Origin: a virus
Direction: 5' to 3' (one strand)
IMG/VR virus record: IMGVR_UViG_3300027973_000081
Span: 1 to 44,620 of that record
Length of the DNA: 44,620 bases
The first letter of the stretch is position 1; every line of letters starts with the position of its first letter. Positions 7,306 to 34,662 of the stretch are shown piece after piece. A program made the position numbers and the translations under genes. The notes beneath the pieces are model-generated. The model worked only from the letters and a program-made list of their open reading frames with translations. It had not been told where the DNA came from and searched no databases.

Positions 7306-9834
7306 ATGAATTTATTTCAATACAATCCTCAAACCTATAAAGGTACTCAAGTAGATCTGCCTTTAGATTTTATTTACCAACAACTTGAAACTAAACAAAA
7401 AGAGTTTGATTTGCAAAATGCTGCTGTTGATAAAGCTGCAGAAAACTTTTTAAAGATTAGTCCTGGTATGTTAACTAAAAATGCTTATGATAGAGTAATG
7501 CAACAATACTTACCTCAACTAGAAAAGATTAGAGATACTCTTATTACTACAGGTAATGTTTCATTAGCAGCTCCAGAGTTATCTAAGTTTACAACATCTC
7601 TTGCTGCTGATTCTGAAGTTAAGAATATAATGGAAGATTATAAACTAACTGATGCATACAATAAAAATTTACAAGAAGGTAAATACACTGATAAAATATT
7701 TGCAGGATTGCGTGATGCAAGTGGTAAAGAAAGACCACAATTGGAAAGAGGTCAAAGAACATCTGCAGCATATTATGCTCCTATGCAATATACTGATCCT
7801 GTATCTTCTTTATTGGAAGAAGCTAAAATTTTCAAAGCTGATGTTATTGAGGATATTAAAAGTAATCCTAATAAATACAATGTTATACAAACAGATTCAA
7901 CTACAATAGAACTTTTAGCTAATCAAAAAGTAAGAGAGTGGGCAAATAATAGATTACCTAGCTGGAGACAGAATCCTGAAAATCAAGGTTATTTCTGGAA
8001 TGCTACTGGTTATAAACCAGAAACATACACTCCTGAAATGTGGGATCAGAATGTAGCAAAAAATATAGCAGACTTAGTTTCTTACTCAAAGGTTACTAAA
8101 GGTACATCTTTCCATAACATGCCTGATATATCTATGCAGGCACCTAAACCAGATAAACCAGCTACAACTCCTGCAGAAGAAACTGCTAAAAAAACAGGTG
8201 CTCCAGTAAATCGTCGTATTATAACTGGTAAAGAAGGAGGGTTAGCATCTTTTGAACAAGGTAGATATAATGGTAACTATATTACAAACTTAAATGATTT
8301 TAATACTGATTTAGAGTATACTAAATCATCAATGCAAGAAAATTACCAAGCTTTAGTTACACTATCTAATGGTGCTATACCTGCAAATTTGGATGTAGCT
8401 TCTGGTAAAAATGGAAGCAGAACTGATGTTAGAGATTGGATAAATACAAACTATACTAAGAACCAATATAGTGAGTGGGTAGCAAAAAGTGCTACAGCAC
8501 CACCAGTTACTCCTGAGATAGCAGCTACACTAACTGGCTTTACAGAAGCTAACTATGCTCATAATGCTAAACAAAAACTTTTCAATAGTTTAAGTGAACA
8601 AACTGGTGTAAAAAATTATAATCCACAAGTTACACAAGACGCTGTTTTTAGAGCACTGCATACAAATGATGCAAATATTGATGTACCTCAAGAAGTAATA
8701 GACTACAATAGAGCTGCAGATCGTGCAATAGATGAGCTATTACTTAACAAAGGTTATAATCCTAGAAGTGATATATATTTAGAAGAAAGAAAAAAACTTC
8801 AAAGTTTAGGTATTGCAGAACTAACTACTAAGCTTCAAAACAGCCCAGGTCAGAGTGTAGATTATTACTTAAAGTCTTTTGGTAAAAATTCTAATAACCC
8901 TAAAAATGATGTAGTTAATAAATACTTAACTGAAGCTACTGGTATTTTATTACAAGGTACTAACGAAGGTAAGATTCATAAAGCTTTTGAGAATTTCAAA
9001 AACAAAATGAGTGAGTACCAACTATCTGATTTACCTGGAGACGGTAAATTCCCTGAGTATGAAAGACAGTTGATTAATATGGGTATAGCAGGTCAGCTAT
9101 CTGGAGTAACAGATATTATAAATAATGTAAAGGCAGATGAAGGAGATGGTCTAACAGAGTTTGTAGAATCTATACCTTATAAAGACGGAGATCCTAAAAA
9201 AGGAATTGACACTGATAATATATCAGTAAGTATGGGTTACACACCTAAAAAAGGTGTTGTAGGTGTTTTATCTTTTAATGGAAAATACTATGAGTTTGAT
9301 CTAGATAAAGCTAATATTGATCAACAGTTTACATATGAATATCCTGAGTTAACACAAGAACTTAGAATTTATAGAGACATTAGTAACAGTGTAAAAAGAA
9401 GTAGTAATACAGAAGGTAAATTTAATATAGGTGATATACCATTTGAATTTAAAGTTCAAACAAAAAACATTGGAACAGATAAACCTGAATTCTATTATGA
9501 GTTTAGTGGTGATGGTGTTAACTCTCAAAAATATACTAATGTGGGTGAGATAATTGCACAAGCTAGTGATATTGCATCTAAGAGATTAAACCAACAAGAT
9601 ATAATTATCAAAGGGTTACAAGCTGAGATACTTGAAAAAGCAAATAGAGCAATAGCTGCTTTACCAATGAATACTTCTCCAGATGTAGTTACTAGAATAA
9701 AACAACAAGCAACTATAGAAATGCAAGAAGTACCTGCAAAAGTAAGCAGTGTATATAAAACAAACACTAAACCTATAGGCAGTGTGGGAAAGCAGGCGCA
9801 GTTTCGTCCAACGCCCCAGACGCCACTGCAGTAA
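7306..9834 (+). CDS. 842-aa helical internal virion protein; zero-frame product of a probable -1 frameshift gene
   Basis: ATG 7306 follows the previous stop by 20 bases (an A-rich spacer, no clear Shine-Dalgarno). The protein is mostly helical and rich in Asn, Lys, Gln and Glu, starting MNLFQYNPQTYKG, with a Pro/Thr/Lys linker near residues 285-300. I see no enzyme motif and no signal peptide. The last 13 codons (after K829, base 9792) are odd. They are GC-rich and Pro/Gln-rich in a genome otherwise near one-third GC, and directly follow a G GGA AAG heptamer read in the phase required for -1 slippage. I infer that ribosomes make this 842-aa form and a minority 1,455-aa form that runs on into the next frame to 11672. 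By position it belongs to the set of proteins packed in the head with the virion RNA polymerase. Confidence 0.7.
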   Translation: MNLFQYNPQTYKGTQVDLPLDFIYQQLETKQKEFDLQNAAVDKAAENFLKISPGMLTKNAYDRVMQQYLPQLEKIRDTLITTGNVSLAAPELSKFTTSLAADSEVKNIMEDYKLTDAYNKNLQEGKYTDKIFAGLRDASGKERPQLERGQRTSAAYYAPMQYTDPVSSLLEEAKIFKADVIEDIKSNPNKYNVIQTDSTTIELLANQKVREWANNRLPSWRQNPENQGYFWNATGYKPETYTPEMWDQNVAKNIADLVSYSKVTKGTSFHNMPDISMQAPKPDKPATTPAEETAKKTGAPVNRRIITGKEGGLASFEQGRYNGNYITNLNDFNTDLEYTKSSMQENYQALVTLSNGAIPANLDVASGKNGSRTDVRDWINTNYTKNQYSEWVAKSATAPPVTPEIAATLTGFTEANYAHNAKQKLFNSLSEQTGVKNYNPQVTQDAVFRALHTNDANIDVPQEVIDYNRAADRAIDELLLNKGYNPRSDIYLEERKKLQSLGIAELTTKLQNSPGQSVDYYLKSFGKNSNNPKNDVVNKYLTEATGILLQGTNEGKIHKAFENFKNKMSEYQLSDLPGDGKFPEYERQLINMGIAGQLSGVTDIINNVKADEGDGLTEFVESIPYKDGDPKKGIDTDNISVSMGYTPKKGVVGVLSFNGKYYEFDLDKANIDQQFTYEYPELTQELRIYRDISNSVKRSSNTEGKFNIGDIPFEFKVQTKNIGTDKPEFYYEFSGDGVNSQKYTNVGEIIAQASDIASKRLNQQDIIIKGLQAEILEKANRAIAALPMNTSPDVVTRIKQQATIEMQEVPAKVSSVYKTNTKPIGSVGKQAQFRPTPQTPLQ
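9786..9829 (+). promoter_or_regulatory. Probable programmed -1 ribosomal frameshift site (GGGAAAG slippery heptamer plus hairpin)
   Basis: Bases 9786-9792 read G GGA AAG with GGA and AAG as zero-frame codons 828 and 829. This is the X XXY YYZ form and the same heptamer used by the lambda G/GT tail-chaperone frameshift. Five bases later a hairpin can form: gcagt 9798-9802 pairs with actgc 9825-9829, then a 2x2 internal loop, then cgtc 9805-9808 pairs with gacg 9819-9822, with a 10-nt loop. After slipping, reading goes on at GCA 9792-9794. The new frame is open to 11672, and holds no ATG, GTG or TTG codon before 9984. The whole site sits in a GC-rich island unlike its surroundings. Use in vivo is inferred. 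Confidence 0.75.
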
Positions 9835-11672
9835 AAAATAAGGGTGAGTATGTAAGTGGTGTAAGAAGTGAAAGGGGTGTAGGAAAAGTAAATTCTTATG
9901 ATAATCCTAGAGATGCTTACAACAATACTTATGGTGATATACACGCTAAGTTTAATAATGGTTCATCTTGGGTAACCCCAAGCATGTCATTATCAGACTA
10001 TATACATAGGTATGCTCCTGCAAAAGATAAGAATGATCCTGTTAGGTATACTAATGATATGGTTAATAGATTTAATCAGGTAATTGGTAGAAATGTAATA
10101 ACAAAAGATACATCTTTAGGGGAGTTAAAAGAAGCTTTAATAGAAGCAGGATTAGATCCTGAACATACTATTACTAAAGCACATTTACAAACAGAAGATC
10201 CTAGAGTATTAAAAGATTTAGGTATAGCATCTGGTAAACCTTCTGAAGCTAGTACTGCAACACCTCCTGCTAACAAGGCTACTGTAACTGAAAATAAACC
10301 AACACCTAAAGTAATAGCACCTACTTATAATAGTAATCCTACATTTACTGCATCACCATTTGCTAAACCTGCAGTAACTGAGCCTGAGCCTAAAGCACAA
10401 CCTAAAGTCAAAGCTCCAGTTCAAGCTCCAGTTAATAAACAAGAGCCTGCTACTAAACCTGAAGTTACAAAACGTACTTTACCTAAAGCTGAAGAAGTAG
10501 TAAACAATAAACCAGCAAGACCTTGGTTTACTTTACCTGAAGTTAAAGTAGAATTTAATTGGAAAACATCAGCAGCTGTTGGTGATTGGATATATTCTAT
10601 TTTTGGTGGAAGTGATGAGGATGTAAAAAATGTATTCAAGTATTTAGAAAATGGAGGTAGTTTACCAGATGCATGGGATATTGCTGAAAACTATGTAGCT
10701 AAAAAACTTGGTTCTGAAGTTTCAGATTTAATAGGTGATACTAAGTCTATGCGTAATCCAGAAACTGATCCTGGTAGAGCTGCTGCTAATTGGGGTTCAT
10801 CGTCTCTAGGTATTAATAAAGAACCTAGAGTTAAATCAAATGTTATTGTACCTAAACTATACGTATCTAATACACCTTCTGTAGATAAAGATGTTTATAC
10901 TTCAAAATCTTTTATAGCTAACTTAAAAAACAGCGATAACAAGTTTACAGTATTAAATAATATACACGCTAATTCTGGAATTAGAGATTTGAATAGTTAC
11001 TATAATAATTTTAATCCTGTAGATGGATCAATAGTGTTTACTATTCAGAATGATGTTGTAAGTGGACAAAAGCCTTTAACTAAAATTACTAAAGATGATA
11101 AATGGTATAGTGATAATGACTTTCTTCTTAAACTAGAAGATGGTAATATTAAAGTTACAAAAGGCTCTTCTTTAAAAGAAGGTGATGATGTCTTCAAACT
11201 TAAAAACAAAGTTTTCTCATTTGATGATTTTGATATAAAAGATGGTAAGATAAATACAGTTTTTGATACTAATATTAATGCTTTAATTCCAGTAATTAAA
11301 AAAGATGCTAAAACTTATAAAGGTGGAACCAGCTTTGTAATTGGTCTTACAGATAAACTAGGTGCAGGATATATACCTATTGAAAGTGCTTCTCAATATG
11401 GAAAATCAAGAGGTGGTTCTTTTATAGTGTTTAATAGTGATATGTCTCAACAGTATATGGTAGGTGGTTCTTTTAAAAATCTATATGACTTTTACCAAGA
11501 TCTAAAGACAAGATATCCAAATGATACCTTTAAGTTTTTTGGAAGTGACACTGGAAGTTATAGTAATTCATTCTTTCCAAAGTCAGGTAAAATAGATGGA
11601 GATGTTTATAGAAAGTCCAATAACAGAAATACTTGGGGAGAAGTGCAGCACATTGTTTTAATGAATAATTAA
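9792..11672 (+). CDS. Frameshift-encoded C-terminal half (626 aa) of the 842-aa virion protein; lysozyme/P5-like segment, Pro-rich linker, unknown C-terminal domain
   Basis: A stand-alone frame could start at ATG 9984 (562 aa), but the same frame is open and protein-like from 9792. The reading before the ATG (EYVSGVRSERG, then DNPRDAYNNTYGDIHAKF and SSWVTP) runs smoothly into SLSDYIHRYAPAKDKNDPVRY. That block resembles the small domain of phage P5/lysozyme-like virion proteins, where a dpe-G-ira-type helix is followed by I-x-x-YAP-x-x-DxND and a Tyr. If so, ATG 9984 would cut the domain in half. After it come a Pro/Lys/Ala-rich linker (about 75-175 of the 562-aa numbering) and a C-terminal domain with Gly-rich strands ending GEVQHIVLMNN, which I do not recognise. 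No ribosome binding site precedes 9984. I therefore read this as the trans-frame part of a 1,455-aa fusion. A separate gene or a sequencing error at the junction remain possible. Confidence 0.7.
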   Translation, partial: AGAVSSNAPDATAVKNKGEYVSGVRSERGVGKVNSYDNPRDAYNNTYGDIHAKFNNGSSWVTPSMSLSDYIHRYAPAKDKNDPVRYTNDMVNRFNQVIGRNVITKDTSLGELKEALIEAGLDPEHTITKAHLQTEDPRVLKDLGIASGKPSEASTATPPANKATVTENKPTPKVIAPTYNSNPTFTASPFAKPAVTEPEPKAQPKVKAPVQAPVNKQEPATKPEVTKRTLPKAEEVVNNKPARPWFTLPEVKVEFNWKTSAAVGDWIYSIFGGSDEDVKNVFKYLENGGSLPDAWDIAENYVAKKLGSEVSDLIGDTKSMRNPETDPGRAAANWGSSSLGINKEPRVKSNVIVPKLYVSNTPSVDKDVYTSKSFIANLKNSDNKFTVLNNIHANSGIRDLNSYYNNFNPVDGSIVFTIQNDVVSGQKPLTKITKDDKWYSDNDFLLKLEDGNIKVTKGSSLKEGDDVFKLKNKVFSFDDFDIKDGKINTVFDTNINALIPVIKKDAKTYKGGTSFVIGLTDKLGAGYIPIESASQYGKSRGGSFIVFNSDMSQQYMVGGSFKNLYDFYQDLKTRYPNDTFKFFGSDTGSYSNSFFPKSGKIDGDVYRKSNNRNTWGEVQHIVLMNN

Positions 11673-11681
11673 CTATATTTG
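11652..11681 (+). promoter_or_regulatory. Bacteroides-type promoter before the giant RNA polymerase gene
   Basis: TATATTTG at 11674-11681 matches the Bacteroides -7 consensus TAnnTTTG exactly. A weak -33-like attg lies at 11652-11655, leaving 18 bases between the two, close to the usual spacing. The predicted start point is a few bases after 11681, giving a leader of roughly 18 bases before ATG 11705. This is one of two exact boxes found before plus-strand genes. Confidence 0.5.
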
Positions 11682-11704
11682 CATAATAATCATTATCATA
11701 CAAT

Positions 11705-14700
11705 ATGGAAGAACTGGAATTAATGCTTCAAAATGGTATTATTGATGCAACTACCTATCAAAAACTAAAGCAAAGATTAACAAGCTCAGAATTAGAACAA
11801 GGAAGAAAACAGAATGAATCTGCAGTAAGGGATGTTGAAAAATATGTATCTAAAGAAAGATCTTTAGGATTAGGTGATGTAAGTGTTGGAGGTAGTACTA
11901 CTGGTAATATATACATGGATCAAGATGAACTTGATACTTATACTTCAAGAGGCATTGCTCCAACTGCAGGTGTAGACTACCGAAACATAAGAGCTGAAAG
12001 ACAAACTTGGCAAGATCAACTTGCTAACGGTGTAACAAAGTTTGCAGGTAAAACTGCTACTGGTGTTGCAGGTGGATTAGCAATGATTCCTACATTAGCT
12101 ATTGTAGTTTTAGGACAACTTACAGACATGGTTAGTCCTTATGATAATTTTCAGTTTAAAGATATTTATGATAATGGTTTTCAAAGAATGATGGATTCTG
12201 CAAATGAATCTATGGATTCTGCATTACCTAACTATGTAAGTAACGCTCAAAGAGAAGCTAGTGTTTGGAATTCAATGGGTACAATGAACTTCTGGGCTAA
12301 TGATTTATTAGGAGGAGCTTCTTTTGTTGCATCAGCATTATTAACTGAATACTTATCAGCAGGTATGGCTACACCACTTGCTTTAACTAGAGTTTCTAAA
12401 TTATTAAAAACAGCTAGTACAGCAGATGATATGGCTACTATTAATAGGTATGCTGAAAGGTTTAGTGGTCTTGTTAAAACAGATAGAGCATTAAAATTTG
12501 GTAGACAGATTGCAACAGGTGCTGGTTATGAAGCTGGTGTTGAAGCAAGACATTTTGTAGATCAAGCTAAAGATCAATATATTAATGATTACATTGAACA
12601 GTATGGTCATGAGCCTACTGAAGAACAATTAGCTATTGCAATGGATGATATACATTCAGTAGGTAATGGTGTATTTGGAGTTAACTTAGGATTAGTTTCA
12701 TTAGGTAATATGATTACACTACCTAAAACATTTGCCCCAGGATTAGCTTCTAAATTTGGATTTAAAGCAGGTAAAGTTAAAGATGCTGATTGGGTTGTTA
12801 AACCATCAGAACTTACTGATACTCAATTAGCTAGAATGTCTAAGAAGACAGGTAAATCTATTGATGAACTTAAAGCAACAGATTATGTAAATAAATGGGA
12901 TGGTCTATCTAAAGTAGAAAGGTTAGCAAGAGCAGGTAAAGGTAGATTTGCACCAATGGTTACAGAAGGATTCTTTGAAGAAGGTTTTCAAGGTGTTACC
13001 CAAAATGCTGCTTTAGATTATATCAGTAATAGATTTAATGTTGATAATATAGGTGAAGTTGCTAATTTAAGTGAGTCTATTATTAGAGGTTTTGAAGAAC
13101 AGTATGATGTTGGTAAGGCTGAAGGATGGAAAGAGATTATCATTGGTTCTATTCTTGGTGGTGTAGGTGCTCCTAATATTGGTGCAGGTAAAGGACAACC
13201 TATTTGGCAAGGTGGAGTATTTGGTTACCAATCTCCAGGTAAAAGAGAAAATATTCAAAACCTAATTGGTGATGCTATTAAATATGGTAAAGCAACTACT
13301 GAAAACATAAAGCATGCTGCTACTGTTGCAGGTATTACTAAAAAGCAAGATGATGCTATTAAACAAGGAAATATGTTTGATGCTAAAAATCAAGAGTATG
13401 CTTCGATGTATTCCTATGTTAGTACAATGGTTAAGCTTGGAAGGTTTGATGAAATTGATTCTGAAGTAAGCAAAATGGTTGAGGGTATGACCACTGAAGA
13501 ATTTGCAGAACAGTTTGGTTATGTTAATAAAACAGAAGAAGAGCTAAGTAAAAGAAAGGCTGAAGTAATTTCTAAATTTAAAAATAGAGCAGATGATATT
13601 AGAGAAGCTAGAGAATTAGCTGATAGGATTTCTATTTATGAAGATGATGAAGATTTAAAAGATGGTTTAGGATATGTTCTTGGTATATCTAAAAACATTG
13701 ATGAGAGAGAAATGCAAATGTTTAAATCTCTTCAAGAAAAATTAGGTAAGATATATAGTACAGATGAAGTTAAACAAATGGCATCCTATGTTAACTTTCA
13801 AAGAACTACTGATGGTAAAGATTTAAAAGAGTATGGAGATAAGGCTAGAGAAAAAAATAAAAAAGTAGCTGAACTTGAAAAACTAACAAAAGAAGAACTT
13901 ACTCAAAATAAAAACAGAACCTCTAAATCTATAATGGAAAGAGGTAAAAAGTTAGATACTTTAACTAATGAAATTGCTGTATTAGAAAATACTATTAATA
14001 GTATTGAAGAAAGATTAAATAGACAATATACTGAGTATTTAAAAGCTAATGGTATTCTTACTGAAGGTGGAGAGTTTATTGAATATACAAGAGATAAGCA
14101 AGCTTTTAAACAAGACTTTGAATTATTTAGAAGAGTACAGAAAGATGTTACTGATGCAGTAGGTGAAGATTTTTATAATAGACCTGATATTAAACCAGTA
14201 CTTGATGATCTAATGAAACTTGCTACTTATAGACAACAGCAAATTACATTAGCTAATTACTACATGGGTAAAAAAGGTCAGACTAAACTAGCTGATGAAA
14301 TTGCAAATCTTAAAAAGATGGCAGAAGAAGAACTTGTTAGTGATGAGTTAGATAAAACAACTCAAGTCTTTCAAGAACAACAGCGTCAACTTGATAATAT
14401 GCAAAGAGTTGCAGCTGAAGCTTATAAAGCAAATGCACAAAGAGTTCATGGTACAGCTTATGTTATTAAAGAAAGAGCTAAAATAGTATCTCAACTTAAT
14501 GATGCTATTAATGATGTTAAAGATCCTGAGTTAAAAGCTACAGTTGAAGATTTAATTTCTAAACTTCAAGGTTTTATTTTGACATTTAATTTAGAAAAAG
14601 ATGATGCTGCTAAATTAAAAGTAGCAACTGATGCATTGGGTTATGTTGAGTTTGTTAAACAAATTCTTAATAGTTTAAAAGAAAGTGCTAAACCAGAACA

Positions 14701-17700
14701 AGTTGCTGAAATAGATGCATTTCTTAGTGGAGAAAAGTTTAATACAATTATAAAACAGTTCCAAGACTTTGTTAAAAATTATAAGAAGGAAGATGGTAAA
14801 GATGAAAACTTATCATCTTATCCTAGAGTAGCTGATCCAAGTAGTCTCACTGTAATGATTCAAAATTACATAAGTCCAGATGGTAAAGCTTTACTTGCAG
14901 ATAAATCTGCTGAAGATATTTTAAACAATCTTGTAATTAGAGTTCTTGAATTACCTGATGATGGTCAAGGTATGGTTAACCTTAAAGATGCTGAAAAAAA
15001 TAAATTTGATAGCAAAGTAATGCTTCAAAGAGGTCTTGTAGGTATGAGTAATTTTGGTTTAGCTATATACTATAAAGATGGTCCTTCAGCTGGTGTACAC
15101 ATAGGTAACATACTAGATCCTAATAGATTTAGATTTAAAGATGAAGATGGTAATTATGTAGATTTTAATGTTGAAAATCCAGAAGAGCATCTTGAACTTT
15201 TAAATCCAAGTTTTGTAACTACAGATAAAGATGGTAATAAAATTGTAACAAGAGATGGTAAATTATTTATAGATAACTATGTTCAAGGTGTTAATGCTTT
15301 TAATGAAATTAAGGAACAAATAAAAGAAGGTAAAAGAGAATTTAGTAATGCTGAAGTAGATCAGTTATTTGATGTTAAAGCAATATTTACAGGACTATCT
15401 AGATTTGAAGAATCTAATACAGAAAAACTTAGTGAATGGTCTTCATTAAAAGATGGTAAACTACAAACAGACTTATCTAAATATAATGGAGAAGGTAAGG
15501 GTATATTGATATTTTACAACTTAAAAAACGAAGCTAACTTTTATTTATATAATCCTGATACTAAACAATTAAAGAGTTTAAATGAAGATACTGCTTTAAA
15601 TTTAAGTTTAATTGAAAACTTTTATTCAGGTGCAGCTAAAAAAGATGTAGATTCTTCACCAGGTAAATTAAAAATCATATATAAGTTTAATGATAATATA
15701 AAAAGTATTACTTTAAAACAACCTGAAGTAGATCCTGATTTTAATGTATCTAATTTAATTATAGATAAATTATTTGAAACAAGTGATAAAGTAAAAGAAG
15801 AACAGGCTAGAAGAAAAGAAGGTGAAGAAAAGCAAACTGTAAATGGTTGGGATACTAATGAACTTTTATTCTTTACAGCTGAAGGAACTGATAAACAGTT
15901 TTCAATATCTGTAACTGGAGTAGGTAGTGGTGAAAAATCTATTGAAAGAAATGGTTCAGCTTTAAATTTAAAAATATATACACCTGGAACTAAAAAAGGT
16001 GAAAGTGGAAAAACAGATACAATTACTTTAACAAGTACTGATGATAAGTTTGATGAAAAATCTACTGCATATTCAGGTTTTAATCTAAGAAGATTATCAA
16101 ATGGTTCTACAGTATTAGAGTATAATAAAAAAGTAATTAAAAATAATGTTGATTTTTTAAATGCTTTAAACAATTATATTAAAGATAAAACAACTGCTTA
16201 TCTTAAAAAGGAAGAAAGTGGTGAAGAGATAAAAAACTTTTTTGAAAAGGTTGGTGCAAACTTATTTCAAAATAAAATTGTAGATGGTAAACTTGTTAAA
16301 AAACCTGTTCAACTTTTAAGAATAAATCAAAACTTTGACAAAAACATGTTAGAGTCTTCCATTAATGATTTTACTCCTTTAAGAAATCCAACAGTAACTT
16401 ATTTCTTTGATGGTAAACCAGTAAAATATGAAGACACTAAGTTTTCAAAAGTATTAACTGAATTTCGTAAAAGTTTAAAGAATGCTAGTAATCTTGGTGT
16501 AAATGGATTAAATGAACTTAAGTCTGTTGTTAAAGATGCTTATGAGCAATTAAGTTCTACAGCTCAAGCTCAAAATAAAGTTCCTTATGAACGTATGTTA
16601 AAAAACATTGATGAGGAAATTAAGAAAAAAGAGAAAGAACAACCTAAAGAGGAAACTGAACAAAAACAACCAGAACCACCACCAGGTCCACAAAGTATAG
16701 ATGATATAACAAAATCTATATTTGGAACAGATCCTCTTCCACCAGGTGAAGGACGTAAAGATGAAGAATCATCAGATGATAGTGAAGGTTATGATGATAG
16801 TCCTTATTTTGCAACCAATGAAATTGTAAGTACAGAAAAAGTAAACTTAGAAGAAGTTAGAGAAAGATTAAAACAAATACTTCCTGATTCAATTAATGTT
16901 AAGTTTATAGATGAGTTTGTAGATGCATTAGCAAATAATACAATTACTTATGGTGTATTTAAGAATGCTGTAATCTATTTAGGTAAAAAAGTTCCTAAAG
17001 GTGTTGAGTATCATGAAGCATTCCATGCTGTGTTTAGAACACTTCTTACAGAAGCTCAAAGAGTTAAAGTATTACAAGAAGCAGTTACAAGATATGGTAA
17101 ACCAACTTCTGAGCAATTAGATCAACTTAAATCTTTAAGTGATAAATATGCTAAACTATCATTAAGACAACTTACCAACTTATGGTATGAAGAAAAACTT
17201 GCTGATGAGTTTATGGATATTATGAATGGTGACAAGGAACTTCCTAAAGAAAAATCATTCTTACAAAAAATATTAGACTTTTTAAAAAGCATTGTAAACT
17301 TATTTAAAAGTGGTGATGCTGAAACATTATCAGAAATAGATGCATTATTTAAATCTATTAAGGGTGGACAGTTTAAAAATGCTAAAACCTTAGATATAAT
17401 AGATGACAACCTTTCAGTGTTTTCATCACTTAAATATGCATCATCTAATGATACAGGTAAACCTATAGCTAAATATCAAGACTCATATTTAAATACAAGG
17501 TTAACAAACAAAGTATTTTATAAAGCTTATCAGAAACTTAAAAATCAAGGTTATGTTACTGATGCTGATATATTAGATGCAATTAATGTTATTGCTAATG
17601 ATTACAAACAAATATATCTAGAGGTTATACAGCAAGATAAATTTTCAAGATATGGTTCAGGATTGCATTCAAAAGAACAAGATGCTATTCAGTTATATAA

Positions 17701-20700
17701 TATAATAAGAAGTATATCAAGTATTAATGAACCTAATGAAGCAATAAAAAATCTTTCAGATAAATTAAGAGAAGAAAATATTGCTAAAATTATTAAAACT
17801 GTAAGACAGAATATTGATACTATTAAGTTTGATGATTATGATGTTGAGAGTGAAGAGTTTGAAGATGATGCACCAACTGAACTTGCACAAAAACCAAATC
17901 AAAGAGTAGGTGGTATGTCTTCTACTACTAAAGAGTTTAGAAGATATATAATGTTTACAGAGTTACCAATTGATGAATTTAACTTTGGTATACCTGAAGA
18001 AATTTTAAAATCAGATCCTAAGTACATTAATTATGTAAATGGTGTTAAACTTTATAATTCATTAGAAAGAATGTTAGTTAATACTGAAAGAGAAGATCTT
18101 CTTAAAAAATTATATTACATTAAAGAAGGTCAACCTCAAATGGAAGCTTTCTATTCTAGATTAGTTAAAGACATTTATAAAGAGTTAGATTTACCAATGG
18201 TTGGTAACTATGAAAAGGATATTACTGAAATGTCAATAAATGATTTAAAAGATTCTAGTAAGTTTTGTTTGTTTACAGCTTGTTTAACAAAACATAAACT
18301 TGAATCTGTAGTAAATATAGTAGATCCTGATACAGGTCAATCTAAAGTATTTATTGCAAATGTTAATGATGCTAGAAAAACTCAAAGAGAAAATTGGTTT
18401 ACTAATTGGAAAATATTAGGTCTTGATAATAAAAAGGATGAAGTAATATCTACATTAAACTTAATATTAAAAACCATTGCTAATACTGATGCAAATGCTA
18501 AATACTTATTTTCTAATTTCAATCAGGCTGTTGCAGATGTTAAACGTCAGTTCAATGAAATAGGTATAACTTTATCTGATAAGTATATTCAGTTATCATT
18601 ATTTAAAATTATAAATGATAAATATCCAGATTTAAATATAGAAAATGAATCTCAGTTTAAATCTCTTAATGAGATAGTTAAAATTTATAAAGACATACAA
18701 TACATTACAGAAGATAATGTTAGAGGTATATTAAATTCAATATCAGTAGATGGTGACCCTTATAGTAATAAAAAAGAATTACAAAAATTCATTTCTAATA
18801 AAATACAACTTACTGAACAAGAAGAAGATGCATTAGGTGCTAAAGGTAGAATTAATGATATAGCTGGTGGTAATGCAATGTTTGATGAATCAGTATCACC
18901 TTCTACTATTAGAAATGTAGATAATGAAATGGTGTATATACACTTATATCCAAACTACATTTCAACATTACTATTAAAAATAAGAAATAGTTATCCTGCT
19001 TTATTATCAGCTATTGATGCTGATACTTTTGAAGAAGGTTTAGATAGCTTTAGAACTTTTTTAAATAATAATAATTTATATTTAGAAAATCCTGAATCTA
19101 CTGAATTAATTGAAAACTTCTTTAGAACTCTTTATAACAATCCAATATTAAATGATAAACATTTAAATGGTGAGTTAAGAGAAACATATTTAAAAAATTT
19201 AACAGCATACTTACTTGATGGTCTTAAACAACAAAGTATGGATGATGATGGTAATGCTGTTAGTTATAAAGGTTCTAAAGCTTCACAATATGCTGCTCTT
19301 GATAAAAGAGGTAAGTTTATAATGATGTTAAACCTATTTGCTAAAACAGATAGAAACAGTTTAGCTAAAACTATAACTATAGGAACTGAAAACTTTGATA
19401 CATATTCATTAATAGCTTTCCAAAATGAAGGTAAAAATACTCAGTATGCATTTAATGTAATTAAAAGAAACTTTGTTGATAGTACAGGAGCATTATCTGA
19501 CTTAGGTAAAGAATATCTTCAAATGATGTTTAAAACTGAAGCAGATAACATTAGAACTGAATATTTAAGAATGTTATCTGGTGAAGGTTCTTTAAAAGAT
19601 TTTAATGAAAACAATGGAGTAAAAATTGGTGATGTATCTTATTCAAAGCAAGAAGTTATTGATATATTAAAAAATACAAGTGATCCTAACTTTATGAAAG
19701 TTGCATCTAAATTTAGAGCACTATCATTTGTAGAGTTTGATCTTCTAAAAGTATATTCTCCTGAATTATATGAATCTCTTTTAAAGTCAGTAGTTAAAGG
19801 TGAAGCTATACCAGAGTTATCTAAAGTTGTAGAAACTACAGCAGCACTTGGATTTAATAACTTCTTAAATGAATTATCTTCTTTAGATACTAATGTTATT
19901 AGTAAATCAAAAGATGGAACTTATGTTTCAGTTACTTTACCACAAGATTATATAGATCCTAATGGTAAGGTGGATATGAAAAAACTTAAAGATTTCTTCT
20001 TTAACAATTGGATTAATGCATCTACTATTAACAATTTAATGTTTGGAAACATTAATACTGGATTAAAAAATTCAGTTGACTTGTTTAAAAGATATGCAGG
20101 ACCAAATGCTGCAGGACCTGCTTTAGGTTTTGGAGATTTAAGATTAGCAATAGTTGAAGATGAGTTTTTTAACTATACTAATCCTGCTACAGGAAAAGTA
20201 GATGAAAATATTGAAAGAACTAATGCTCAAAGTTATGGTACTTTAGATTGGTATTACAATAACTATTTAAAAACTTTCTCTAAAGTTAATCCTGAGATTG
20301 ATAGAATATATAGAAAGATTAGAATGATGTATGAACTTACAGGTAAAGAAAGAGATACTTTAGATAAGTATGGAGCTTTACTTAATCCTAGAAAAACATC
20401 ATTGTTTAATGCATTCATATATGGTAAAACTTCTACAGATATAATTGATAGAAATGAAGTTAGTTATGTAGAGGAATCTAAATTACCTGAGTTTAGAAAA
20501 GCAATAGATGATCTTTTAAAAACTAAAGATAAAGATGATTATCATGCTAAGTTAATTGCAATTCAAAGTTATTATAAACCTTATCCAAAATCAGTTGCTT
20601 TACATAATAAGCTTAATGAGATGGAACAAACTAAAACTGATATAATAATTTTTCCATCAGCAGTTAAAACTAATAAGCAAAACATTACTAAATGGAATGA

Positions 20701-23700
20701 ACCTTTAAAACCAGTAGTAGTTAGTAATGACTTCTTTAGAGAGCAAGTTGTTACTGATAACATGAAAACTGAAATTATTCATGGTACTCAGATGATGCAA
20801 CTTATATACTCTGAGCATAATGATAATACTATTGTTAAACTTAAAGGTAAAGAAGGAGAGTATCAAGAATATAGTGTTGGTACATTAAGAAAATTATATA
20901 GAAAACTTCTTGGTGATAGATTATTTAGAACATATGGTGAATTAAGAAAAGCTGTTTTAAATCCTGATGGTTCTACAAACTTTAAATCATTATTGAAAAG
21001 CTTTAAACAATCTCTTATTGAACAAGGTGGAGATCCTACATTATTAGAATTATTTGATGGTGTAGGAGAAAAAAGTAACTACAATTTAAATTTACCTAGA
21101 ATATTATCTCTATATGAAAACATGTTCCTATCCTTTATGGGTAAAGGAACATTCTCTCAAAAAGTACCAGGACACAAGTTTACTCTTGTAACTGATTTTG
21201 GTAATGGTGTAATGGAACAAGATGGTAAGATTGTTACTGATAAAGAATACAGAACTAATCCATCTAAATATGAGAAAGTAAGTGTTAGAGATCTTGAATT
21301 TAAATATGATGCTGAAAAAAATGCTTGGTATGGTGAATGTAAAATACCAATGCAGCTAGCAGAAACTATTGGTCTTAAGGTAGGTGATGAGTTACCACAA
21401 GAGTTTTTAGAACTTGTTGGTGTTCGTATTCCTACACAAGATAAACACTCTATGGTTTATTTAAAAGTAGTAGATGTGCTTCCTGCTCAAAAAGGTAATA
21501 AGATTATTATGCCTAAGGAAGTATTGATTTTGTCAGGTGCTGACTTTGATATTGACTCTGAGTTTGCTAGAACAGTATCTTATTATGCAAGTAAAGATGC
21601 TCAAGGTAAATCTCATCTTAATATTTATGGATCTTATTTAGAGAAAGATGCTCCTGAAAGAAGAATTAAATATGCATACTTTGATTTTAGAGAAGAAACT
21701 TTAAATTCTAAAGCAGTTAAAATAATTCTTAAAGATACTAAAGAGAATGATGTTGAGTTAGTTAATCTTCAAAGAAGTATTGATACAGTATCTAATGATA
21801 TTAAAGAACTTAGAAGACAACTTTATGAAGAAAAGAAACTTTCATTTGATTTAGATAATGATATTAATGCTGCAATTGAAGCAGATGAATTTACTTTTGA
21901 TTCATCATTAGTTAAACTAAGTGAATCTTTAAAAGAAAATATATCTTACTATAAAGAAGATATACAAAAATTCTTACAAGATAAAAAAGAACTTCTTGAA
22001 CAAAAGAAAAAACGTATTAAAGAACTTGAAAATAAAGTTCTTAAAGAAAAAGGTTACCCTACAGATGTTGAATCATTTAAATCTTATAGAATAGATGGTA
22101 AAGCTACTGCAGAAACTATTGTAGAAAATAACTACAACAACTTTAATAAGATTAATGGTGGTTCTATTGATAGAATACAACCTATTACTATTGGAGAATT
22201 AAATAACCTTTTATTTAATATTGAAAAAGTTTTAATTAATAATGGTAACCTTACTAAAAACAATGAAGGTAATCATGGTATTGCTCAAACACCTGCATCA
22301 AGAGATGCTGCTGTAGATTTTATTGAAAAATATTATGATACAGGAATATTTAAAGATCCTGTAAATGTAATTGAGTATTCAACTCCTACAGCAGTTGTTA
22401 AAATGGCTGAAGCAAATAGTATAGGTAAAGAGAATATTGGTATTGCAGCTATTGGTAACATTGTATTTCAATACTTAAAGAATGCTAACATACTTGTTGA
22501 AGGTGGAATTAATGTTAAAATAGATAGTTATACTAATGATCAGCAACAAAGAATAAATGACTTGATTTCTACAATCATATCAATGGCTGTAGATAATGCT
22601 AAAGAGCAGGATGCTATTAGATTTAATATTACTCCTGCAACTCAAGGTGCATTTATGTTTATGATAATGACTAAAAAAGGTTTTGAGTATACTTCATTAA
22701 TACATTTACAAGATTCAGTATTAAGATTTTCTCAAATGTTTGCTAATAATAGTTCTCCTATTAAACCTAAAAAAGAAAAAGATGATTCAGATTTAGATGA
22801 TTTGGCTAAATTACTTGTTGAATATTCTACTAATATAGATGTAGAAGAACTTGTAGTTAAGTATGGTCCATTAACTATTGAAATGTTAGTAGAAGCTAAA
22901 AAGTATTCTGAAAATAAAGAAACTAGTACTTTAACTGAAGAACAGTTTAAATATATTAATTACATGTCTTTATCAGAATTTCAAACATATAAAGATGTTT
23001 CTCAAAACAGTACAGGATTTTCACAGTTTGTATCTTTAGTTAAAGGTCTAAGAACTGAAATTGCTGAAACTGAAAACATAGCTAGAAAATTAGATACTAT
23101 TGGACTTGAAATTGTTAAAAGAGAAGGTACTGATGGTAATAATTTTGATGATTACAGTTTAAGACATACTGATAAATACATTGAATATATTAATAGTGTA
23201 AGAGCTTTAGAAGCTCCTAATATGAAATATCCAATTGATTATCTTGAAGTAATTAAAGCAGACCCTTTCTTAATGAATCAAATTAAAGCTTATGCTTTAT
23301 TTATGAATGATTCATCTAAATTTTTCTTAGCACAAACACCTAAAGCTAAAAAACTTATTAATAGATTATCAGAATCATTAAAAACAAACTATTTAAATAA
23401 TATTGATAACTATAATAAACTTGTAAAGCTTATAACAGCTTACTATGGTAATAAAGCTTCTTTACATAAATTAACTAAAGATTCAAAGTTAAGTCCTGTA
23501 ATTAAGGAGATGTTAACAAATTATGATATATCAGAAATGGTTACATTATCTGGTGAAGAAGAAATGCCTCAAATAATTTCTTTGTTAACTGAACTAATAA
23601 CAGTTCCTGAATTAGCTAGTAATAAGTTTTTAAGAATGCTTGAGTTTGATAAGATTATATATGATGATAAAAGTAAAGCAGGTTTTAAAAATAGAAACGT

Positions 23701-25486
23701 ATATACTGTTATATCAAATAGTTATATAAGACTTTCACCAGAAGAACAACAAAGAGTAACTTCTGATTTTGAAATGCTTAAACTTCCTCAATCAATAACT
23801 AATGATAAATTACTTCAAGAAAAAATATCATTGTTTAGAATACTATTAAGTAAGCATCTTATAATGAAAGATCTTTCTATGTATAGAAACAATAGTTATG
23901 TTTCATTTTTACCACCATCATTTTTTGCACCAGTATCAGAAGGACTTGATTTAGCACAAAGTGCTCTTGAAGGTAAATTAAAATATGAAGATGTATTTGG
24001 TGTATCAGAAGATGAATTTAATAGAGATTTTGTAGAAAGATATTGTAGAGATATCAATAATACTTTTGATTTAAAATCTCAAAGATCTGATATTGTATTT
24101 AATCAAATTAAAAATGGATATTTAAGACTTTTAGGAGAATTAAGTCCTGAAGATGTTGCAAGTCTTAAAAAAACTAAGCTTGGTGAAAAAATAATTGAAC
24201 TTTCAAACTTAGTAAAATCTAGTGCAACTGAAACAGAAATTAAAGAAATAATAAAAGAGTTAAGAGAAAATGATTTACTTCCTTTAAAGTATACATCACC
24301 TAATAAAGAAAAAGGTACACCTGCTAAATTGGAAGTAAGTATATTTTCTAATATAGGAGTTGATAAAGATGATGTAGATCCTGCTAGTTATAATCCTGTA
24401 ATGGTAAATGCAAATAAAGAAGCTTTATTTTCAACAAGGTTATTTGGTATTGAACTTGTTAAAAAAGGAAAAAAATATTATAAAAATGTAATATTCCCTG
24501 AATTTATTGTGTTTAACTTTAAAGACAGTAAAGGAAATAGTAACTATAAAGTATTAAAAAGAAAAAAACTTTTTAATAAAAACATTGAATCTAAAAATCC
24601 TAATGCAGGATTTAAAGCAGAATATGAAGAGGTTACAAGAATTGGTAGTAAACAATTACTTCCTTACATGTTAACACTTGCTCAATTAGAAGATGCTGCT
24701 AAAGGTACAATGCCAGAAGAAATTGATTTTGAATTAACTGCAGAAGACTTTGATGAAAGATTTGGAACTCCAGAAACTAAAGTTCAAAACACTGATGAAA
24801 TTATAAAAAAGGTAAAAGAACTTTCTTTAACTCAAAAAGTAGTTAAGTATGTTACTGAAAAAGATATTTTTACAAATAAAGAAGTTAAAGTTCCTATAAC
24901 TGAACCATATCCTGTAACAGAAGAAAGATTAAAAAATTTAAAAAATTATTTATTAAGTTTAAATATAAATTCTGATTTTAATAAATATGTTCAAGAACTT
25001 ACTACAAAGTTTTTTAATAAAAATGAAAATAGAACATCTTTAATTGATAGAGTAAAATCCGAACTTAATAAATCTAAAGAAAAAGTTGAAACTAAAAAAA
25101 CAGAAATAAAAGTTACAACTATAAAAACAGAAGAACTTTATAATTTAAATAAACAATACTTTCAAGAAAAACTTAAATTAACATTAGAACAAGTAAAAAA
25201 GATATATGGAGAAAATTTATCTTCTGATAAATTAACTACTTTACTTAAAATGGCAAAAGATATAGGGTATACTTTAAGTACTTCAAAACAACAAGTAAGT
25301 ACTTCAACTACTACACTTGATTATAAAACAATGTCACAAAAAGAATTAGAAAGTATATTTGAAAAACATAAAGATAAACTTGCATCAAAATATAAAATAA
25401 CCAATCTTCTTGATTTCTTTGCTTCAATTAAAAATCCAGCATACAGTAATGAGATAATTCAAATGATGCTAGACAGTTGTATGTAA
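11705..25486 (+). CDS. Giant 4,593-aa virion protein containing the crAss-like RNA polymerase and a zincin domain
   Basis: This is a single uninterrupted frame of 13.8 kb. In order: an N-terminal part with hydrophobic stretches (about 118-142, 202-226, 478-498) like crAss-like cargo proteins; coiled coil near 715-775; a Pro/Glu- and Asp/Ser-rich linker (about 1638-1702); an HExxH zincin motif (HEAFH, H1770-H1774) with a candidate third ligand in EEKLADEF and an amphipathic FLQKILDFLKSI helix; then the polymerase region. There RIPTQ (R3241) is followed by GADFDIDSEF, with D3280, D3282 and D3284 as the metal-binding triad of the two-barrel RNA polymerases of the YonO/phi14:2 gp66 type. A coiled coil follows at about 3350-3455, and the C-terminus is Lys-rich. 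Family knowledge: such polymerases are packed in the head, injected, and transcribe early genes. The protein is much longer than the roughly 2,200-aa gp66, so cargo and polymerase appear fused here. Cleavage by its own or a neighbouring zincin is inference. Confidence 0.85.
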   Translation: MEELELMLQNGIIDATTYQKLKQRLTSSELEQGRKQNESAVRDVEKYVSKERSLGLGDVSVGGSTTGNIYMDQDELDTYTSRGIAPTAGVDYRNIRAERQTWQDQLANGVTKFAGKTATGVAGGLAMIPTLAIVVLGQLTDMVSPYDNFQFKDIYDNGFQRMMDSANESMDSALPNYVSNAQREASVWNSMGTMNFWANDLLGGASFVASALLTEYLSAGMATPLALTRVSKLLKTASTADDMATINRYAERFSGLVKTDRALKFGRQIATGAGYEAGVEARHFVDQAKDQYINDYIEQYGHEPTEEQLAIAMDDIHSVGNGVFGVNLGLVSLGNMITLPKTFAPGLASKFGFKAGKVKDADWVVKPSELTDTQLARMSKKTGKSIDELKATDYVNKWDGLSKVERLARAGKGRFAPMVTEGFFEEGFQGVTQNAALDYISNRFNVDNIGEVANLSESIIRGFEEQYDVGKAEGWKEIIIGSILGGVGAPNIGAGKGQPIWQGGVFGYQSPGKRENIQNLIGDAIKYGKATTENIKHAATVAGITKKQDDAIKQGNMFDAKNQEYASMYSYVSTMVKLGRFDEIDSEVSKMVEGMTTEEFAEQFGYVNKTEEELSKRKAEVISKFKNRADDIREARELADRISIYEDDEDLKDGLGYVLGISKNIDEREMQMFKSLQEKLGKIYSTDEVKQMASYVNFQRTTDGKDLKEYGDKAREKNKKVAELEKLTKEELTQNKNRTSKSIMERGKKLDTLTNEIAVLENTINSIEERLNRQYTEYLKANGILTEGGEFIEYTRDKQAFKQDFELFRRVQKDVTDAVGEDFYNRPDIKPVLDDLMKLATYRQQQITLANYYMGKKGQTKLADEIANLKKMAEEELVSDELDKTTQVFQEQQRQLDNMQRVAAEAYKANAQRVHGTAYVIKERAKIVSQLNDAINDVKDPELKATVEDLISKLQGFILTFNLEKDDAAKLKVATDALGYVEFVKQILNSLKESAKPEQVAEIDAFLSGEKFNTIIKQFQDFVKNYKKEDGKDENLSSYPRVADPSSLTVMIQNYISPDGKALLADKSAEDILNNLVIRVLELPDDGQGMVNLKDAEKNKFDSKVMLQRGLVGMSNFGLAIYYKDGPSAGVHIGNILDPNRFRFKDEDGNYVDFNVENPEEHLELLNPSFVTTDKDGNKIVTRDGKLFIDNYVQGVNAFNEIKEQIKEGKREFSNAEVDQLFDVKAIFTGLSRFEESNTEKLSEWSSLKDGKLQTDLSKYNGEGKGILIFYNLKNEANFYLYNPDTKQLKSLNEDTALNLSLIENFYSGAAKKDVDSSPGKLKIIYKFNDNIKSITLKQPEVDPDFNVSNLIIDKLFETSDKVKEEQARRKEGEEKQTVNGWDTNELLFFTAEGTDKQFSISVTGVGSGEKSIERNGSALNLKIYTPGTKKGESGKTDTITLTSTDDKFDEKSTAYSGFNLRRLSNGSTVLEYNKKVIKNNVDFLNALNNYIKDKTTAYLKKEESGEEIKNFFEKVGANLFQNKIVDGKLVKKPVQLLRINQNFDKNMLESSINDFTPLRNPTVTYFFDGKPVKYEDTKFSKVLTEFRKSLKNASNLGVNGLNELKSVVKDAYEQLSSTAQAQNKVPYERMLKNIDEEIKKKEKEQPKEETEQKQPEPPPGPQSIDDITKSIFGTDPLPPGEGRKDEESSDDSEGYDDSPYFATNEIVSTEKVNLEEVRERLKQILPDSINVKFIDEFVDALANNTITYGVFKNAVIYLGKKVPKGVEYHEAFHAVFRTLLTEAQRVKVLQEAVTRYGKPTSEQLDQLKSLSDKYAKLSLRQLTNLWYEEKLADEFMDIMNGDKELPKEKSFLQKILDFLKSIVNLFKSGDAETLSEIDALFKSIKGGQFKNAKTLDIIDDNLSVFSSLKYASSNDTGKPIAKYQDSYLNTRLTNKVFYKAYQKLKNQGYVTDADILDAINVIANDYKQIYLEVIQQDKFSRYGSGLHSKEQDAIQLYNIIRSISSINEPNEAIKNLSDKLREENIAKIIKTVRQNIDTIKFDDYDVESEEFEDDAPTELAQKPNQRVGGMSSTTKEFRRYIMFTELPIDEFNFGIPEEILKSDPKYINYVNGVKLYNSLERMLVNTEREDLLKKLYYIKEGQPQMEAFYSRLVKDIYKELDLPMVGNYEKDITEMSINDLKDSSKFCLFTACLTKHKLESVVNIVDPDTGQSKVFIANVNDARKTQRENWFTNWKILGLDNKKDEVISTLNLILKTIANTDANAKYLFSNFNQAVADVKRQFNEIGITLSDKYIQLSLFKIINDKYPDLNIENESQFKSLNEIVKIYKDIQYITEDNVRGILNSISVDGDPYSNKKELQKFISNKIQLTEQEEDALGAKGRINDIAGGNAMFDESVSPSTIRNVDNEMVYIHLYPNYISTLLLKIRNSYPALLSAIDADTFEEGLDSFRTFLNNNNLYLENPESTELIENFFRTLYNNPILNDKHLNGELRETYLKNLTAYLLDGLKQQSMDDDGNAVSYKGSKASQYAALDKRGKFIMMLNLFAKTDRNSLAKTITIGTENFDTYSLIAFQNEGKNTQYAFNVIKRNFVDSTGALSDLGKEYLQMMFKTEADNIRTEYLRMLSGEGSLKDFNENNGVKIGDVSYSKQEVIDILKNTSDPNFMKVASKFRALSFVEFDLLKVYSPELYESLLKSVVKGEAIPELSKVVETTAALGFNNFLNELSSLDTNVISKSKDGTYVSVTLPQDYIDPNGKVDMKKLKDFFFNNWINASTINNLMFGNINTGLKNSVDLFKRYAGPNAAGPALGFGDLRLAIVEDEFFNYTNPATGKVDENIERTNAQSYGTLDWYYNNYLKTFSKVNPEIDRIYRKIRMMYELTGKERDTLDKYGALLNPRKTSLFNAFIYGKTSTDIIDRNEVSYVEESKLPEFRKAIDDLLKTKDKDDYHAKLIAIQSYYKPYPKSVALHNKLNEMEQTKTDIIIFPSAVKTNKQNITKWNEPLKPVVVSNDFFREQVVTDNMKTEIIHGTQMMQLIYSEHNDNTIVKLKGKEGEYQEYSVGTLRKLYRKLLGDRLFRTYGELRKAVLNPDGSTNFKSLLKSFKQSLIEQGGDPTLLELFDGVGEKSNYNLNLPRILSLYENMFLSFMGKGTFSQKVPGHKFTLVTDFGNGVMEQDGKIVTDKEYRTNPSKYEKVSVRDLEFKYDAEKNAWYGECKIPMQLAETIGLKVGDELPQEFLELVGVRIPTQDKHSMVYLKVVDVLPAQKGNKIIMPKEVLILSGADFDIDSEFARTVSYYASKDAQGKSHLNIYGSYLEKDAPERRIKYAYFDFREETLNSKAVKIILKDTKENDVELVNLQRSIDTVSNDIKELRRQLYEEKKLSFDLDNDINAAIEADEFTFDSSLVKLSESLKENISYYKEDIQKFLQDKKELLEQKKKRIKELENKVLKEKGYPTDVESFKSYRIDGKATAETIVENNYNNFNKINGGSIDRIQPITIGELNNLLFNIEKVLINNGNLTKNNEGNHGIAQTPASRDAAVDFIEKYYDTGIFKDPVNVIEYSTPTAVVKMAEANSIGKENIGIAAIGNIVFQYLKNANILVEGGINVKIDSYTNDQQQRINDLISTIISMAVDNAKEQDAIRFNITPATQGAFMFMIMTKKGFEYTSLIHLQDSVLRFSQMFANNSSPIKPKKEKDDSDLDDLAKLLVEYSTNIDVEELVVKYGPLTIEMLVEAKKYSENKETSTLTEEQFKYINYMSLSEFQTYKDVSQNSTGFSQFVSLVKGLRTEIAETENIARKLDTIGLEIVKREGTDGNNFDDYSLRHTDKYIEYINSVRALEAPNMKYPIDYLEVIKADPFLMNQIKAYALFMNDSSKFFLAQTPKAKKLINRLSESLKTNYLNNIDNYNKLVKLITAYYGNKASLHKLTKDSKLSPVIKEMLTNYDISEMVTLSGEEEMPQIISLLTELITVPELASNKFLRMLEFDKIIYDDKSKAGFKNRNVYTVISNSYIRLSPEEQQRVTSDFEMLKLPQSITNDKLLQEKISLFRILLSKHLIMKDLSMYRNNSYVSFLPPSFFAPVSEGLDLAQSALEGKLKYEDVFGVSEDEFNRDFVERYCRDINNTFDLKSQRSDIVFNQIKNGYLRLLGELSPEDVASLKKTKLGEKIIELSNLVKSSATETEIKEIIKELRENDLLPLKYTSPNKEKGTPAKLEVSIFSNIGVDKDDVDPASYNPVMVNANKEALFSTRLFGIELVKKGKKYYKNVIFPEFIVFNFKDSKGNSNYKVLKRKKLFNKNIESKNPNAGFKAEYEEVTRIGSKQLLPYMLTLAQLEDAAKGTMPEEIDFELTAEDFDERFGTPETKVQNTDEIIKKVKELSLTQKVVKYVTEKDIFTNKEVKVPITEPYPVTEERLKNLKNYLLSLNINSDFNKYVQELTTKFFNKNENRTSLIDRVKSELNKSKEKVETKKTEIKVTTIKTEELYNLNKQYFQEKLKLTLEQVKKIYGENLSSDKLTTLLKMAKDIGYTLSTSKQQVSTSTTTLDYKTMSQKELESIFEKHKDKLASKYKITNLLDFFASIKNPAYSNEIIQMMLDSCM

Positions 25487-32695: not shown

Positions 32696-32700
32696 AATTG

Positions 32701-32708
32701 TAAATATA
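32701..32708 (-). promoter_or_regulatory. Near-consensus -7 box before the GIY-YIG gene
   Basis: On the minus strand the bases read TATATTTA, one change from TAnnTTTG, ending only 5 bases before ATG 32695. If used, the transcript would begin at or next to the start codon, giving a (nearly) leaderless message. Single-mismatch boxes are expected by chance in AT-rich DNA, so this is weak. Confidence 0.25.
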
Positions 32709-32737
32709 CAGATATTTCTTCACATTACCAAATAAAA

Positions 32738-34633: not shown

Positions 34634-34654
34634 TTTTAAATTTTTTAAGGGTGC

Positions 34655-34662
34655 CAAAGATA
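34655..34662 (-). promoter_or_regulatory. TAnnTTTG promoter box for nrdJ
   Basis: The minus strand reads TATCTTTG, an exact -7 match, 21 bases before ATG 34633. It lies just after a hairpin with a T-run, so transcription from the phosphoesterase gene could stop and restart here. The box overlaps the in-frame TTG at 34657, which argues against that codon as the nrdJ start. Confidence 0.5.

Follow-up and report, generated by a model that had tools for sequence, protein, structure and literature searches.

The 44,620-base stretch of DNA analysed here (the window) is an IMG/VR virus record, IMGVR_UViG_3300027973_000081, and represents a single metagenomic contig of a crAss-like phage. At the locus in question, the gene order is the C-terminal part of a muzzle protein, a 2,256-aa open reading frame (ORF), an 842-aa ORF, a 562-aa ORF, and a 4,593-aa ORF. 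The 842-aa ORF (7306..9834; all features of this locus lie on the plus strand) encodes a putative cargo/ejection-type internal virion protein, as judged from the gene order relative to crAss001 and from its homologues. It stops at TAA 9832–9834, and its end overlaps an ORF in the −1 frame. The overlap contains the heptamer G GGA AAG (9786..9792), a predicted site for programmed −1 ribosomal frameshifting, which would join the two frames into one long protein.

At the heptamer, the zero frame reads GTG GGA AAG, which corresponds to the X XXY YYZ phase, 48 nt upstream of the TAA. The −1 frame is free of stops from 9771 to 11672; thus, as expected for a programmed −1 site, a heptamer in the correct zero-frame phase is combined with a −1 frame that is open across the stop. 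From the slip site to 9984, no ATG, GTG, or TTG occurs in the −1 frame, and there is a single ATA at 9939. The extension (9786..11672) has 628 codons if the GGG of the heptamer is taken as the first; of these, 626 are added after the slip. The fusion would comprise 829 zero-frame residues (7306–9792) and 626 residues of the −1 frame (9792–11669), giving 1,455 aa. The phase, the open frame lacking a start before 9984, and the size of the fusion had been claimed in a first-pass annotation made from the letters of the window, and all of them were reproduced. The predicted frame-shifted product contains the tryptic peptide AGAVSSNAPDATAVK, and a Glu-C peptide of it would span VGKAGAVSSNAPDATAVKNKGE. 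Reassigned stop codons were also considered and set aside: most zero frames end in TAA, and no stop interrupts the −1 frame when the standard code is applied.

The stretch of the −1 frame ahead of its first ATG (9984..9986) is coding. Between 9846 and 9983, the codon-position G+C values of 0.43/0.46/0.20 match those of the neighboring ORFs, the other frames are stop-rich, and 26 of the 46 encoded residues are identical to a relative, L008 (see below). This similarity belongs to a 134-residue domain (9846..10247, delineated by homology and AlphaFold) that is 51% identical to its L008 counterpart and in which ATG 9984 is residue 47. Since the protein homology reaches 46 codons upstream of this ATG, we rejected it as the sole start, in line with the earlier claim that initiation there would cut a domain in two. 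In the AlphaFold prediction, a low-depth model that was fairly confident for extension residues 36–150, a helix formed by residues 41–56 precedes Met 9984 within the same compact domain. A perfect 6-bp hairpin, CTTGGG-TAAC-CCCAAG, lies at 9967–9982, directly 5′ of ATG 9984.

The first-pass annotation also reported a two-part hairpin just downstream of the heptamer. This stem is present (9796..9832; outer GCAGT/ACTGC and inner CGTC/GACG), and begins about 3–5 nt past the heptamer with a folding energy of −11.1 kcal/mol (z = −2.1, p = 0.04). Extending the fold to 68 nt gave nothing better than shuffles, so that, in the window alone, the hairpin is only modestly significant. The word GGGAAAG is not rare in the window, where it was found twice in any frame as compared with 2.7 expected occurrences, so relatives were needed to test for chance.

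The neighboring giant gene, and then the 842-aa protein, led to the first relatives, the loci L003, L008, and L009. No homologues of the fusion were detected in INPHARED, and in protein-derived scans of viral and genome collections these three loci were the only relatives of the fusion gene. Other relatives were collected by matching a motif of the giant gene at the DNA level, using a degenerate pattern written by hand; this gave 39 loci with a giant-gene homologue, some of them already known records. In the alignment, the identity of the N-terminal part (N-part) to the window was about 44–49% for L003, 39% for L008, and 38% for L009. All three carry an in-phase GGGAAAG (GGGAAAA in L009) at the end of the gene, with the −1 frame staying open. 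Within the long plus-strand ORFs of the window and these three loci, in-phase GGGAAAR occurred 6 times in 26,294 positions, and four of the six are the slip sites. The background outside the slip sites was 2 in about 26,200 positions over the four sequences.

Seven further loci (L026, L034, L059, L050, L051, L058, and L074) have a zero-frame ORF overlapped by at least about 50 nt by a long −1 ORF. They carry an in-phase GGGAAAG 45–54 nt before the stop, just upstream of the giant gene. As L034 and L059 are near-identical, they were counted as one virus, and the total is ten distinct viruses, the window included. In these ten, G GGA AAR is in phase 45–60 nt before the stop. A profile built from the first four N-parts recognized six further slip-site records with E-values of 9e-13 to 2e-27; it found no match for L058, whose contig begins inside the N-part gene. 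The zero-frame ORFs examined in full (717–759 aa) terminate just past the heptamer, and a related GK..PQ.. ending is kept together with the stop in most members. The sequences all come from uncultivated viruses and are mostly incomplete contigs, and the ten viruses belong to one clade and do not represent ten independent origins.

In a tree of the N-terminal region of the giant protein, the ten frameshift viruses fell within one clade of eleven (support 100/99). The nested eleventh member, L044/L108 (record G023), has a 628-aa N-part homologue lacking the slip site and the extension; a transglycosylase-like profile, Phage_lysozyme2, and M23 were not found elsewhere in this 92.5-kb record. The trait thus looks like one gain with one nested loss, as far as the sequences tell. 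Apart from this loss, the relatives did not show an unbroken frame devoid of the heptamer: heptamer and frame offset persist in all ten distinct viruses. At the same locus, phi4:1, csAssE-Sib, crAss001, bajarodcaudo virus 1, and others have single ORFs where upstream sequence is available.

A stem situated about 3–8 nt downstream of the heptamer, as expected for a stimulatory structure, was found in nine of the ten viruses. In seven of them the stem is visibly the same, with a CCYCA start and a UGGGG end, 4–8 nt past the heptamer. Two-sided pair changes were observed in this shared element at position 6 (G-C or A-U), position 7 (A-U, C-G, or G-C), position 8 (C-G or U-A), and position 9 (U-A or C-G). 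Some of them leave the zero-frame amino acid unchanged, with CAG/CAA (Gln) paired with CUG/UUG (Leu). The compensatory changes belong to the homologous stem of the seven relatives and not to that of the window; both the window and L008 have stems of their own. Relative to dinucleotide shuffles, the mean z of the ten sites was −2.06 (Stouffer −6.5). H-type pseudoknots, drawn by eye, could form between 5′ GGCG and the apical-loop CGCC in the window, and between GGGG and CCCC in L008. A Shine–Dalgarno-like AGGAG 9–10 nt before the heptamer was evident in L008 and L009 only, and was therefore not counted as a shared part of the signal.

The −1 parts of the relatives carry recognizable enzyme domains. 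L008 contains an M23 peptidase domain (E = 6e-29), and L058 contains a phage tail lysozyme domain (Phage_lysozyme2, E = 5e-27). L003, L009, L026, L034/L059, L050, L051, and L074 have in common a domain in which a Glu and a His are invariant and which contains an A-x-G-x-Y-Q motif. The top PDB matches to the profile of this domain were chains of the gp144 lytic transglycosylase/endolysin, at marginal E-values of 0.009–0.01. The domain is also 36% identical to one in Leptolyngbya phage Lbo-JY46, which itself gives a weak Pfam transglycosylase match. A transglycosylase-like enzyme in this seven-member group is thus likely but not proven from the sequence comparisons. Foldseek listed mostly T4 lysozymes for the L009 domain, none of them significant (E = 0.3 or worse), and this resemblance is a hint only; the AlphaFold models were weak, with mean pLDDT values of 51 and 37. 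Taken together, nine of the ten distinct members have a hydrolase-like domain, recognized or at profile level, in the −1 part, and three families are represented. In the frameshift viruses, whose records are partial, these families were seen in the −1 part only.

The extension of the window starts with the 134-residue domain described above, whose counterpart follows the M23 domain in L008. It continues with a Pro/Lys-rich linker and a low-confidence region (10248..11117, pLDDT mostly below 50), and ends with a C-terminal domain (11118..11669) that sequence comparison revealed in L003, L008, L026, and L050 at 22–25% identity. The short extensions of L009, L034/L059, and L051 lack this C-terminal domain, and none was seen in L058 and L074. 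The lysozyme/P5-like label that had been given to the window extension found no support, as no match appeared in Pfam, PHROGs, NCBIfam, or a PDB fold search; hydrolases are demonstrable in the relatives only.

Two known phages have domains of these kinds encoded in-frame. In bajarodcaudo virus 1 (L022 7011–9974), a CARG1 cargo protein has an in-frame Phage_lysozyme2 domain, an in-frame alternative to the arrangement described here. In Leptolyngbya phage Lbo-JY46 (L024 7873–9360), a protein with an in-frame transglycosylase-like domain, annotated only as hypothetical, lies upstream of a giant gene with crassvirus-like homology.

The gene neighborhood places the locus in a crAss-like lineage. 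The upstream neighbor matches the C-terminal domain of crassvirus muzzle proteins (crAss_MUZ_C, PF25729, E = 5e-9). The giant 4,593-aa RNA polymerase (RNAP)-associated gene (11705..25486, plus strand), which was the anchor for finding relatives, is homologous to crAss001 gp47 and to its counterpart in phi4:1. The N-part gene lies between the gp45-position gene and the gp47-position giant gene, which is the position of crAss001 gp46 (cargo protein 2). The crAss001 cargo proteins are packed within the virion and are expected to form a DNA ejection channel (PMC10172136). Based on this shared gp45–gp46–gp47 position (PMC10172136), and not on sequence similarity, we regard the 842-aa protein as a putative internal virion protein. 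A search of the 842-aa protein gave no hit to the CARG1 domain (PF25725, crassvirus cargo protein 1), while the positive control, crAss001 gp45, scored E = 2e-66; a PDB sequence search with the N-part returned nothing. A tail assembly chaperone of the lambda gpG/gpGT type was rejected as an identity for the locus: the neighbors are the muzzle C-terminal domain and the giant RNAP-associated gene, not a tape measure gene.

Further observations concern the surroundings. The element TATATTTG at 11675–11682, just 5′ of the ATG of the giant gene (11705), resembles the Bacteroidota −7 element TAnnTTTG. On the minus strand, a ribonucleotide-reductase-like ORF (31913–34657) matches only part of the barrel domain and adjoins a GIY-YIG/NUMOD3 homing endonuclease, which suggests a gene disrupted by an intron or intein. 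A LAGLIDADG ORF was found at 42391–43137.

When a stem lies downstream of an X XXY YYZ site, tandem slippage gives a −1 product in minor amounts. We consider it very probable that a programmed −1 frameshift provides a minority of a putative internal, cargo/ejection-type virion protein with a C-terminal payload, which in this clade is usually a peptidoglycan hydrolase. The signal, its phase and conservation, the covariation of the stem, the open and coding −1 frame, and the hydrolase domains of the relatives are read from the sequences themselves. Most ribosomes would terminate at TAA 9834 and release the 842-aa protein. A minority would pause at the GC-rich stem behind the heptamer G GGA AAG, shift back onto GGG AAA, and read the −1 frame to 11672, producing a protein of 1,455 aa that shares the N-terminal part of the short form and carries a C-terminal payload. 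Across the clade, this payload would usually be a transglycosylase-like enzyme, a phage tail lysozyme, or an M23 peptidase; in some members, an accessory domain and the shared C-terminal domain come next. Through their common N-terminal part, the long and short forms would be packaged together, and only a fraction of the subunits in the complex that is ejected with the DNA would then bear the payload. In this way, frameshifting may set the share of ejected subunits equipped with a wall-cutting domain. From the signal and the gene context we infer slippage and its rate, the virion location, packaging and co-assembly of the products, and wall digestion during DNA entry.

Several results weigh against this interpretation. 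The extension of the window itself has no recognized catalytic domain in Pfam, PHROGs, NCBIfam, or a PDB fold search, and Foldseek with its AlphaFold model matched nothing. Hidden Markov model (HMM) comparisons revealed no similarity between the N-part and crAss001 gp45/gp46. The stem statistics are weak in L003 (z = −0.7), and a stem is absent in L058 (z = +0.6). A GTG occurs in the −1 frame within 15–45 nt of the heptamer in L003, L008, L026, and L074, and L058, whose N-part is cut by the contig end, has an in-frame ATG after the heptamer. With the GTG so close behind the heptamer, independent starts are possible in those four loci taken singly. ATG 9984 and these GTG codons speak for a two-gene explanation, in which the downstream ORF starts at ATG 9984 in the window, or at the GTG in the relatives, and is translationally coupled to the upstream stop; other crassvirus-like phages do carry hydrolases as separate genes or in-frame. 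We find this explanation quite improbable. It conflicts with the homology upstream of ATG 9984, and it would leave the conserved in-phase heptamer without a reason. Moreover, in L009, L034/L059, L050, and L051 the first ATG lies past the invariant, putatively catalytic Glu and the GKYQ motif, so independent ATG starts would cut the predicted domain there, as in the window. Judging from the sequences, independent initiation could serve L003, L008, L026, and L074 through GTG and L058 through ATG, but not the group as a whole.

The frames could also have been separated by an assembly or sequencing indel in one long gene, a concern because the window is a single metagenomic contig. In ten distinct contigs, the frames are offset by −1 at an equivalent place and always at the heptamer, and the zero-frame ending with its stop is maintained in most members, which makes an indel exceedingly improbable. 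Because nine further distinct IMG/VR contigs have the same architecture, chance and assembly error are effectively excluded as its source, on the comparative evidence. A frame change by transcriptional slippage, ribosome bypassing, or intron removal might be considered, since crassviruses are intron-rich (PMC7886860). The site has no long homopolymer run. The overlap of the two frames falls exactly on a classical −1 heptamer followed by a stem, and they can be joined without removing anything; such a route is very improbable. The remaining alternative accepts the frameshift and differs in function only: the extension would be structural or host-binding, like the Ig-like extensions of coat proteins, and the hydrolases of the relatives would be incidental. 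The extension of the window, with its lack of a recognized enzyme domain, and the C-terminal domain common to five members speak for it. We regard it as unlikely, though clearly less so than the other alternatives, given the hydrolase-like domains from three families in the −1 parts of nine of the ten distinct members.

Programmed frameshifting in phage genes has precedents. The heptamer of lambda gpG/gpGT is of the same G GGA AAG type. The lambda products act in tail assembly and do not occur in the mature virion, and their gene lies beside the tape measure gene, whereas here a gene in a crassvirus cargo position lies beside an RNAP-associated gene, and the added part is an enzyme in the relatives. 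The first-pass proposal of a lambda-type −1 site fusing two frames is strongly supported, with nine relatives sharing heptamer, phase, and offset, and most of them a stem. In E. coli, the heptamer G GGA AAG shifts very readily (PMC5009743). In the coat protein of T7/T3, and in Lactobacillus A2 and Listeria A118/A500/PSA, a minority virion protein likewise receives a C-terminal extension by programmed frameshifting, exchangeable between phages (PMC5009743). Those extensions, often Ig-like, are on coat or tail proteins; here, a putatively internal protein would be extended, usually by peptidoglycan hydrolases. T7 gp16, an ejection protein with an in-frame transglycosylase, and the gp15-like ejection proteins of K1E/K1-5 are internal, carry a peptidoglycan hydrolase of the transglycosylase/lysozyme type, and have domains swapped between phages (PMC8954989). 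As their enzyme is in-frame, every copy has it, while here it would be reached by frameshifting only. In Crassvirales, gp45 (C1) and gp46 (C2) occupy the same neighborhood of a muzzle gene, one gene, the N-part gene, and the RNAP-associated gene. In crAss001 there is no such extension, and no sequence similarity of its gp45 or gp46 to the N-part was found; the C1-like protein of bajarodcaudo virus 1 has an in-frame lysozyme domain. Another phage frameshift case concerns a lytic enzyme for host lysis, in contrast to the putative virion protein here. In the crAss001 structure, most cargo proteins could not be resolved, and cargo sets differ among groups (PMC10172136).

Virion proteins extended by frameshifting are thus already known, as are ejection proteins with hydrolases in-frame. 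For their combination, a frameshift-extended ejection protein with exchanged enzymes in one clade, no published description was found in the openly accessible papers searched. In agreement with the first-pass annotation, the use of this known class of mechanism on a putatively internal ejection-type protein with hydrolases appears to be undescribed. We lean toward a broader proposal, namely that the clade keeps a conserved frameshift "socket" at the end of an internal ejection protein, that recombination exchanges unrelated peptidoglycan hydrolases in this socket, and that frameshift efficiency, not promoter strength, sets the number of enzyme-bearing subunits in the ejected DNA channel. In a separate comparison of the window (11658 onward) with L003 (9958 onward), the giant gene showed about 90.6% DNA identity, while the ORF in the cargo position showed about 44–49% protein identity and the −1 payload was different. 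This contrast probably places a recombination boundary at the end of the fusion gene.

The frameshift would account for two genes reported at this locus by gene callers, and the site is a further −1 signal from a bacteriophage, with stem covariation among diverged viruses. Shine–Dalgarno interactions are thought to be weak in Bacteroidota. If the host belongs to this phylum, as for known crassviruses, the site would be a natural cassette for frameshifting studies there. The findings bear on how crAss-like phages pass through peptidoglycan and on how the copy number of ejected proteins is set. A hydrolase added by frameshifting to part of an ejection-type protein would be a directly testable dosage mechanism.
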